A stretch of DNA of 23,120 bases from positions 1 through 23,120 of IMG/VR virus record IMGVR_UViG_3300005056_000024; one strand, written 5' to 3'. The notes under the pieces are model-generated. The model made no database searches and was not told where the DNA came from. It was given only the letters and a program-made list of their open reading frames with translations. Shown here piece by piece: positions 10,225-12,860 of this stretch; the stretch's first letter is position 1, and each line of letters opens with the position of its first letter. Source of the DNA: a virus. The position numbers and the translations under genes are program-made.

Positions 10225-10470
10225 GTGACAGAGAAGACGACTATAGCCAGTTACCTTGTTTCTTTACTTGGTTTTCTGGGTGGTTTTTCAGGAGAACAAT
10301 GGATGTCCTTCTTGGGTGGTTTTTTCATGGTGGCTACGTTCGGGATGAGTTGGGCCTACAAACATTTTCAACACAAACGTGAAGAGCGCGAGTCTGAGTA
10401 TGAGCGTTTAAAAACAGAACATTTATTGGGTAGAAAACTACCGCTACAAGGAAATGATGATGAGCGATAA
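10225..10470 (+). CDS. hol: HP1-type small holin
   Basis: An 81-residue membrane protein starts with GTG (MTEKTTIASYL), with GAGGTG upstream. Hydrophobic segments at about 8-22 and 27-45 are followed by a highly charged tail (KHFQHKREERESEYERLKTE), the layout of class II holins such as HP1 Hol. 'FLGGFFMVATFGMSWAYK' resembles the HP1 'GLLLGV.TF..NWYYK' pattern. It is the second holin-like gene in the block, so one of the pair may be a holin and the other an antiholin or a functional duplicate. No spanin (Rz/Rz1) pair is recognisable. Its 3' end overlaps the chaperone gene. Confidence 0.7.
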   Translation: MTEKTTIASYLVSLLGFLGGFSGEQWMSFLGGFFMVATFGMSWAYKHFQHKREERESEYERLKTEHLLGRKLPLQGNDDER

Positions 10471-10768
10471 AAAAGACGATACTGAAGATAAGAATTCACA
10501 AACAATTGAAATTGAAATTGAGGATCGTGATTTTAAGTTCAATGTGACTCGACCAGACTACAACGATTGTGTGAATCAGTTAGCTACGGCAAAAAGTAAA
10601 GTGGCTACTATGCATAACTTCCTGATGTTGACGATTGATGAAAGTAACAAATCTGATTTGAGACAGATATTAAAAGATAACCCTGGATCAGAAACGCAAA
10701 TATTTCAGGCTGTTTACAATGAATACGTTCCCGATTTGGCGATTGTTGCAAAAAAGCGCAAGCGTTAG
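10460..10768 (+). CDS. Tail assembly chaperone, zero-frame product (HP1-type, PF10963-like)
   Basis: Tail assembly chaperones bind the tape measure and keep it in a form on which tube subunits polymerise. The 102-residue acidic-to-basic protein begins MSDKKDDTEDKNSQTIEIEI, has FKFNVTRPDYNDCVNQLAT and an ILKDNPGSETQIFQAVYNEY block, and ends AIVAKKRKR. This matches my memory of the HP1-like chaperone family. Three in-frame ATGs occur at 10454, 10457 and 10460; AAGGA at 10448-10452 fits 10460 best. Codons 97-99 (GCA AAA AAG) contain an A AAA AAG slippery heptamer, so part of the translation should shift into the -1 frame and continue to 10950. It lies immediately before the tape measure, as such genes always do. 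Confidence 0.78.
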   Translation: MSDKKDDTEDKNSQTIEIEIEDRDFKFNVTRPDYNDCVNQLATAKSKVATMHNFLMLTIDESNKSDLRQILKDNPGSETQIFQAVYNEYVPDLAIVAKKRKR

Positions 10769-10790
10769 CGGATAGCATCGAAAATAACGC
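10750..10790 (+). promoter_or_regulatory. Programmed -1 frameshift signal (slippery site plus stem)
   Basis: The heptamer A AAA AAG at 10750-10756 is in the correct zero-frame register (gcA AAA AAG) and is the most slippery -1 sequence known in E. coli. Five bases further, GCGTTA (10762-10767) can pair with TAACGC (10785-10790), giving a 6-bp stem at the spacing expected for a stimulatory structure. The zero-frame stop is at 10766-10768, so a ribosome that does not shift stops within four codons. Confidence 0.75.
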
Positions 10791-10950
10791 ATACGACCAG
10801 CTTTGTCTCATGGCCGCAAAGTGGTTGCCAGATGAGCCGCTAAGCCAACGAACATTAGGTAGAGCGCTTTACCTGGACAATAACTACTGGGACAGGATGC
10901 AGGATGCCGTCGCAAACGGTATTGCTCAAGCGTTAAACGGGAGTAATTAA
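10756..10950 (+). CDS. -1 frame extension of the tail chaperone (frameshift-only 'T' domain)
   Basis: After slipping on A AAA AAG, the -1 frame is open for 64 codons, from GCG at 10756 to the TAA at 10948-10950, two bases before the tape measure ATG. The fusion would be about 163 residues (99 zero-frame plus 64). The extension reads AQALADSIENNAYDQLCLMA and later RTLGRALYLDNNYW, a compact helical sequence resembling short uncharacterised proteins placed before tape measures in related prophages. It has no start with a good ribosome site of its own; the internal ATG at 10810 lacks one. Lambda G-GT and P2 E-E' use the same arrangement. In lambda the extension carries soluble tail tube subunits to the tape measure, and a similar role is inferred here. 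Confidence 0.75.
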   Translation, partial: AQALADSIENNAYDQLCLMAAKWLPDEPLSQRTLGRALYLDNNYWDRMQDAVANGIAQALNGSN

Positions 10951-10952
10951 AC

Positions 10953-12860
10953 ATGAGTACACGGCTTGAAAAATTGATGTTCACTGTGGGTCTTATTAAT
11001 CAGATCTCAGGGCCTGTTAACCAGATCATGGCGGACATTGACGAGTTAACCCGACATACCACCGCTGGCTTTTTGCGTATCGGTTTTGGTATGGCGGGTT
11101 TAGCCGGTGCTGGTCGTGTACTTGATGGTTTGCTTGATCCTGTAAAGGAAATGCAGGAGGCTCTGGGTGAAGTTAAGAGCCTGAGTGTTATTGATGAAAC
11201 GTTATCAAAGTTAGAAAACGCTGGTTTGCGCTACTCCATTAAATACGGTGAATCCGCCGCTGAATTTGTGAGTGCCAGTTACGATATACAAAGTGCTATT
11301 GATGGTTTGGCGGGTGATGACCTTTCGATATTTACCAACGCTAGTGCGGTGCTTGCTAAGGGCACCAAATCGGACGTGGCAACGATTACCAATTACATGG
11401 GCACTATGTATGGAATTTTTCAAGAAACCGCTAACGAGATGGGAAAGGCTCAGTGGGTAGAGCAATTGGCAGGACAGACCGCTAGTGCTGTAAAAATGTT
11501 TAAAACAACGGGGGCTGAAATGTCGTCGGCGTTTAGTGTCCTTGGGGCAGAGGCGCAAAGTAACGGTGTTGCCCTGGGTGAGCAGTTATCCATTTTGGGT
11601 ACCCTACAAGCCACGATGAGTGGCAGTGAAGCTGGCACCAAGTACAAGGCGTTTTTATCCGGTGTGGGCAAAGCACAGGATGCACTGGGGCTATCGTTCA
11701 CGGATAGCCATGGGCGGTTATTGCCGATGGTTGATGTGTTGGGCGCGATCAAAGGGAAATTTGGCGAGATTGATACCGTTGCAGAAGGCGACGTATTAAA
11801 GAAAGCGTTTGGAACGGGAGAAGCCGTTTCACTTATTAAGCTGTTAATGAAAAACACCGATGGTTTGGCTGACTCCATCAATGAGCTGAATCATGTGACC
11901 GGAATGGATAAGGCCATACAAATGGCAAATGACATGACACATTCTTGGGATCGCATGGGCGCGGGTATCACAGCCGTGAAAATTAAAATTGGTACTGCGT
12001 TGTTACCTGTATTAAACCCGTTAATGAATCTGATGGCGGACGGCACCGAAACGCTTGTACGCTGGTCTGTGATGTTTCCCAATATCACCCGCGTTATAGG
12101 TTTGGCAACAGTGGCTGTCCTTGGCATTGTTGCTGCCATTTCTCTTTTGACCATTTTAGGTGGTGTTATTTTGCTAATGAAAGCGGCGTCGATAGGTGCG
12201 GGAATTGGTGCAGTGGCATTGAAAGCGTTAAGTATGGGCTTTCTAACCGCCACCTGGGGCGCGTTAAAGTTTGGAGCAGCTTTGCTACTTAATCCTATTA
12301 CGTGGATTGTGCTAGGTATTGTGTCACTTGTCGGCAGTCTTGTATGGCTTTCCTCTAATTGGGGTACGGCCATGGGTTGGATAACCGAAAAATGGCAGTG
12401 GTTCAAGGGCATCATCGAGAACAACGCGTTTTTATCTTTTGTATTTGCGCCGTTAATGGCTGCTGCTGGAATTGTCGGTTTTATGATTGATAACTTTGAC
12501 AAAATACCGCAATGGTTTGAGCATTTTAAAAATTGGTTATCGGGGTTGAATCTCTTTTCTATCATTGGTGACGGTGTGGATTGGTTGGTGGACAAAATCA
12601 ACTTAATCCCTGGTATAGACATTGGTGGCGGTGAATCGTTATCAGTAACCGCAAAGAATGAGCGTGACGCCATACGGGCAAGCGTACCGAGTCTACAGAG
12701 ACAAGCCATTAACAAAGTGCCAAAAGGCGGTTTGTTAAATCAAATCTCAAATGCAACGAATAATAACGGCGGTGCTAATACCAATAATCTCACCGTTCAT
12801 ACGACTCAAAAGGTTGATGCATTCTTTCTTGAAAATCAATTGGCAATGGCAACCAGTTGA
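10953..12860 (+). CDS. Tail tape measure protein (TP901 core family)
   Basis: The tape measure sets tail length and is ejected ahead of the DNA. The 635-residue protein has the TP901-type core at about 60-330: AGLRYSIKYGESAAEFVSAS, LAKGTKSDVATITNYM, AGQTASAVKMFKTTGAEMSS, GVALGEQLSILGTLQATMSG and EAGTKYKAFLSGVGKA. Long hydrophobic stretches at about 381-409 and 439-467, and a third near 490, could insert into the host inner membrane. The C-terminus is Asn-rich (TNNNGGANTNN). At roughly 1.5 angstroms per residue the predicted tail would be about 95 nm, shorter than P2; that is an estimate by rule of thumb. GGGAG nine bases before the ATG supports the start, and the gene follows the chaperone frameshift stop by two bases. 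Confidence 0.92.
   Translation: MSTRLEKLMFTVGLINQISGPVNQIMADIDELTRHTTAGFLRIGFGMAGLAGAGRVLDGLLDPVKEMQEALGEVKSLSVIDETLSKLENAGLRYSIKYGESAAEFVSASYDIQSAIDGLAGDDLSIFTNASAVLAKGTKSDVATITNYMGTMYGIFQETANEMGKAQWVEQLAGQTASAVKMFKTTGAEMSSAFSVLGAEAQSNGVALGEQLSILGTLQATMSGSEAGTKYKAFLSGVGKAQDALGLSFTDSHGRLLPMVDVLGAIKGKFGEIDTVAEGDVLKKAFGTGEAVSLIKLLMKNTDGLADSINELNHVTGMDKAIQMANDMTHSWDRMGAGITAVKIKIGTALLPVLNPLMNLMADGTETLVRWSVMFPNITRVIGLATVAVLGIVAAISLLTILGGVILLMKAASIGAGIGAVALKALSMGFLTATWGALKFGAALLLNPITWIVLGIVSLVGSLVWLSSNWGTAMGWITEKWQWFKGIIENNAFLSFVFAPLMAAAGIVGFMIDNFDKIPQWFEHFKNWLSGLNLFSIIGDGVDWLVDKINLIPGIDIGGGESLSVTAKNERDAIRASVPSLQRQAINKVPKGGLLNQISNATNNNGGANTNNLTVHTTQKVDAFFLENQLAMATS

Follow-up and report, generated by a model that had tools for sequence, protein, structure and literature searches.

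Slippage into the -1 frame near the end of a chaperone gene, with two protein products as the outcome, is familiar in tailed phages. In the siphophage lambda (G and GT), the short form binds the tape measure protein, and the long form binds the tail tube subunit through its T part (PMC5009743). In phage P2, the chaperone gene E likewise stands before the tape measure gene and a -1 frameshift near its 3' end yields the product E+E', whose extension reaches the tape measure gene. Although their sequences show no similarity, P2-related phages and lambda are described as keeping the E/E' frameshift arrangement (PMC3931495), and HP1-like and P2-like phages diverge strongly in their tail modules (PMC10612066).

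The closest described relatives of the locus analysed here are found among the HP1-like phages. Pseudoalteromonas phage ACA1, an HP1-like member of the Peduoviridae, carries gp36/gp36a (OR438928), with the same chaperone family (PF10963), the same heptamer position and a homologous extension, and its record already annotates the two as one joined CDS, with a frameshift projected by analogy to P2. Orf26 of Haemophilus phage HP1 (NC_001697, P51730) belongs to the same family and shows the same gene order and a homologous -1 extension; its heptamer, A_AAA_AAC, stands directly before the stop, and no frameshift is annotated in NC_001697.

The present locus lies in a virus record of 23,120 bases (IMG/VR IMGVR_UViG_3300005056_000024, positions 1 to 23,120), hereafter called the window. 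Its heptamer is A_AAA_AAG, a variant different from that of HP1 and from the A_AAA_AAA of ACA1, and its zero-frame stop lies 16 bases past the heptamer start whereas that of ACA1 lies 28 bases past it. P2 is set further apart by its T_TTT_TTG site, which is recovered by the same reading of the site as was used here, and by the Pfam families of its two halves (TAC_7 and Phage_P2_GpE). Lambda is likened to the window by mechanism and by a presumed division of labour, not by sequence comparison. Frameshifting is not new to this phage group: it is projected in the ACA1 record, and the site is present in HP1. Based on these two precedents, the window is a member of a known system, securely supported by comparison, and the additions made here are small. 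They concern how widely the arrangement is conserved, how the slippery site has been replaced in nature, and evidence for DUF6890 as a domain reached by frameshifting and not a protein that stands alone. Judged from sequence, the window almost certainly encodes two chaperone products through -1 programmed frameshifting of the lambda G/GT and P2 E/E' kind.

The probable frameshift site in the window

All features described below lie on the plus strand. The chaperone ORF offers three in-frame candidate ATGs, at 10454, 10457 and 10460, the last of which is favoured as the start because AAGGA is found at 10448-10452, 7 bases before it. The short zero-frame product encoded at 10460-10768 is a Phage_TAC_10 tail assembly chaperone (PF10963, E=1.1e-16, 61.2 bits against a Pfam gathering score of 25.7; phrog_1214, E=3.8e-23). 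Near its end, the slippery heptamer A_AAA_AAG occupies 10750-10756 in the zero-frame register X_XXY_YYZ, its codons being AAA at 10751 and AAG at 10754, and the zero-frame stop TAG follows at 10766-10768. The -1 frame extension (10756-10950) consists of 64 codons and a TAA at 10948-10950, 2 bases ahead of the ATG at 10953 that opens the gene for the tail length tape measure protein (10953-12860; phrog_28, E=3.2e-90; PF10145). The chaperone gene is immediately upstream of this tape measure gene, as it is in the homologues among the 21 phage records. The extension matches DUF6890 (PF21830, E=8.1e-17, 61.1 bits against a gathering score of 23.6; phrog_7050, E=1.1e-16) and would form the C-terminal part of the predicted fusion, in which 99 residues from ATG 10460 up to the slip and the 64 that follow add up to 163. 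The heptamer, the stop, the 64-codon frame and the TAA two bases before the tape measure gene had all been placed by the original prediction, and every coordinate was confirmed.

From one start codon, two proteins would be made by -1 programmed ribosomal frameshifting. The majority of ribosomes would translate the Phage_TAC_10 chaperone and terminate at 10766; in a minority, the tRNA-Lys on AAA and AAG would slip in tandem one base back on A_AAA_AAG, and these ribosomes would continue through the 64-codon -1 frame to give the 163-residue chaperone-DUF6890 fusion. If the roles are as in lambda gpG/gpGT, the short form would serve as a coat for the tape measure protein, and recruiting the tail tube subunit would fall to the less abundant long form. 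The ribosomal nature of the slippage, its efficiency and the role in tail assembly are what we infer from the sequences.

The word AAAAAAG is by itself not rare, occurring 11 times in the window against 8.9 expected. Across the 24 window genes, 22 in-register X_XXY_YYZ heptamers are present, and the A_AAA_AAG at 10750 is the sole one within ten codons of a gene end as well as the sole one followed by a long -1 frame (64 codons, the next longest being 30). The stretch behind it is also the only inter-gene gap of more than 100 bases in the window. Unlike word frequency, heptamer conservation in hundreds of homologues is decisive for the reality of the site. In the same region, a holin-like gene at 10225-10470 (PF16080, the HP1 holin family, barely above the cut-off; also a PHROG holin) separates the tail tube gene from the chaperone gene, and the tail module is thus split by lysis genes, as it is in HP1.

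Conservation and replacement of the slippery site

The homologue set comprised 21 phage records together with loci found by the extension sequence in GTDB genomes and IMG/VR. Loci were obtained with subgroup alignments as queries; full family alignments were too diverse for searching, and each half of the window's predicted fusion, scanned singly against IMG/VR, brought up no relatives. Among the 348 loci carrying the extension, 341 have A_AAA_AAN (AAC, AAA or AAG) at the orthologous position, and as many of these loci are near-duplicates, the count after dereplication at 90% extension identity is 84 of 87. The other seven of the 348 have AAAGAAA (four loci), AAAGGAT (one) or single-base deletions (two). 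The deletions, in L181 and L206, lie at or just after the site and were put down to sequencing error or decay, as was a disrupted chaperone in L381. The zero-frame stop lies mostly 7 or 28 bases past the heptamer start, and the 16 bases of the window are unique in the set.

Since the first loci had been gathered via the extension, a second search was run with the chaperone alone, over ~1,150 genomes in family and order samples, which replaced a class-wide genome sample that was too sparse. The extension stood behind the chaperone in all 58 distinct loci, cut by a contig end in one of them. An A6N heptamer was in register at the end of an intact chaperone frame in 56 of the 58; one further locus had AAAGAAA, and in the remaining one the chaperone was disrupted upstream with the site intact. 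This joint conservation of the heptamer and the -1 frame protein, the check that had been proposed with the original prediction, supports the claim that an HP1-like phage makes a 163-residue fusion by -1 frameshifting. The case that would have spoken against it, namely an open downstream frame with no slippery site and a start codon preceded by a ribosome site, was not found in ~400 loci.

Where the heptamer is replaced by another sequence, shift-prone letters are retained. The five substitution exceptions keep A_AAG, which is shifty in E. coli (PMC5009743), and single-tRNA slippage may be enough at these AAAGAAA and AAAGGAT loci. One or the other of these words, with only the A_AAG tetramer left, is seen in place of A6N in L043, L079, L345, L346, L347 and L372. 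In L351 (931-937) and L352, whose tape measure proteins are the nearest to that of the window (48% identity), A_AAA_AAG is replaced at the same place and in the same register by G_GGA_AAG, another highly shift-prone heptamer (PMC5009743), and both the chaperone and the DUF6890 extension are retained. These natural replacements are ready test material for how a fixed product ratio is maintained.

Codon choice at the site is also unusual. Where valine precedes the lysine pair, it is encoded by GTA in 74 of 74 cases against 13.7% of valine codons elsewhere, although the loci are related and a formal P-value would overstate the contrast. The A6G set shows GTA at this place in 20 of 21, yet GTA accounts for only 8 of 156 valine codons in that set. 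On the sequence evidence, protein conservation by itself does not explain this choice. Both observations bear on transcriptional slippage, in which RNA polymerase would add or drop an A in the A6-A7 run to give mRNAs that fuse the two frames. Runs of 6-7 A are indeed present in most loci. However, L351 and L352 (GGGAAAG) and the AAAGAAA and AAAGGAT loci have both halves without a long run, and the zero-frame register and the GTA choice match tandem tRNA slippage, so that an origin in the polymerase seems very unlikely.

Evidence for translation of the -1 frame

Selection on the extension was measured in 205 distinct extensions with the zero-frame stop directly past the heptamer, which keeps the count free of confusion from overlapping frames. 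For extension codons 2-15, dN/dS is 0.13 when read in the extension frame, compared with 6.4 and 1.9 when read in the others, and codons 16-60 have a dN/dS of 0.22. Coding selection on the -1 frame is thus seen from its first codons, at a site whose position and register are observed directly and with which both halves are co-conserved.

These values bear on whether the gap is non-coding or the remnant of a decayed gene. The stretch does fall outside ORF calls that use ordinary starts, but its protein is conserved in hundreds of loci, evolves at a dN/dS of 0.13-0.22 and gives a confident three-helix model. Coding selection has already refuted this idea, and its probability is negligible.

Another contender is that the extension is a small gene of its own (DUF6890), with translation beginning at ATG 10810 or coupled to the chaperone stop, and with the A-run being incidental. 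Such a gene is what 7 of the 21 phage records list, and the Pfam model begins at a methionine of this kind (model position 1 is -1 frame residue 20). However, the codons ahead of ATG 10810 are under purifying selection. As codons 2-15 precede the methionines used in stand-alone annotations, this selection indicates that they are translated, which they would not be in a gene starting there. Further, ATG 10810 is not conserved; only 34 of 87 dereplicated loci have any ATG within the first 22 extension codons and only 3 of 87 have an SD-like 4-mer ahead of any candidate start. A separate gene also leaves both the conserved in-register heptamer and its G_GGA_AAG replacement unexplained. As the sole mode of expression it is effectively refuted, and we consider it highly improbable.

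Frameshifting into the extension, on the other hand, is the reading that records most often miss. Besides the seven with a stand-alone ORF, 13 of the 21 phage records omit the extension and 1 joins it, and the expectation that annotation would lose or split the extension was thereby borne out. In Cronobacter phage ESSI-2 (L022, 432-877), the chaperone and the extension are both unannotated though intact with the heptamer. Collectively, temperate phages of Vibrio, Aeromonas, Enterobacterales, Pseudomonas and Pasteurellaceae would share a two-product chaperone arrangement like that of lambda and P2, built from protein families without detectable sequence similarity to those of P2. DUF6890, a family of unknown function, would gain a role, and gene models that split or drop the extension could be corrected.

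Downstream RNA structure and predicted protein folds

A stimulatory RNA structure downstream of the site is common in such frameshift chaperones, though not obligatory. The original prediction proposed a stem for the window, and a 6-bp stem, GCGTTA (10762-10767) with TAACGC (10785-10790), is present 5 bases past the heptamer, within 10762-10790. Its role as a stimulator found no support: 3.5% of random window positions carry a comparable stem, and the window fold is no more stable than synonymous recodings of it (z of +0.24 and -0.69 in two set-ups).

A stem common to the whole family was sought and not found. Some phages of Vibrio, Salinivibrio and enterobacteria have strong hairpins; the A6G (Pseudomonas) class does not, and the window does not clearly have one. 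Hairpins of 7-9 bp that begin 3-9 bases past the heptamer were observed in L010, L011, L016, L018 and L090. The strongest folds are mainly at A6A sites of Vibrio phages, with z near -3; at 90% dereplication, the mean hairpin z is -2.1 for A6A and -0.07 for A6G, and at 80% dereplication the difference in hairpin stability between A6A and the rest is not significant (p=0.09). The AAC and AAA heptamer variants are weaker in E. coli (PMC5009743), and a pairing of weak heptamers with strong hairpins is suggestive. It forms one part of a joint proposal for the HP1-like group, to which we give an even chance as a whole: that DUF6890 would be a frameshift-encoded domain of Phage_TAC_10 and not a protein of its own, that the slippery site would be replaced and not lost (from A6N to G_GGA_AAG or A_AAG tetramers), and that hairpins would be strongest at intrinsically weak heptamers.

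The chaperone had been described as unrelated-looking, which holds at the level of sequence against P2 E and E'. Neither half of the window gave a Pfam match to the P2 gpE/E' families (PF10109, PF06528), and hhalign against the P2 sequences returned probabilities of 0.1 and 1.1, with power limited by the use of single sequences. In its predicted fold the chaperone may resemble known tail chaperones, including that of HK97, with middling scores. The AlphaFold model of the chaperone half (pLDDT 89) has as its best structural match the uncharacterised 3fgx (Z 10.3, rmsd 2.3 over 84 residues), followed at a distance by the HK97 gp14-type 2ob9 (Z 5.1, rmsd 5.5 over 88 residues) and YqbN 3klu (Z 5.2, rmsd 6.4 over 88 residues).

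The three-helix model of the extension alone is confident (pLDDT 95). No solved structure matched it convincingly (best Foldseek E 3.4), which has no bearing on the novelty of the fold. In the collection of papers searched, neither DUF6890 nor PF10963 is named. The DUF6890 Pfam model covers the extension only from an internal methionine (window 10810-10947; PF21830, phrog_7050), leaving out the first ~19 residues, and seems to have been built on mis-started ORFs.
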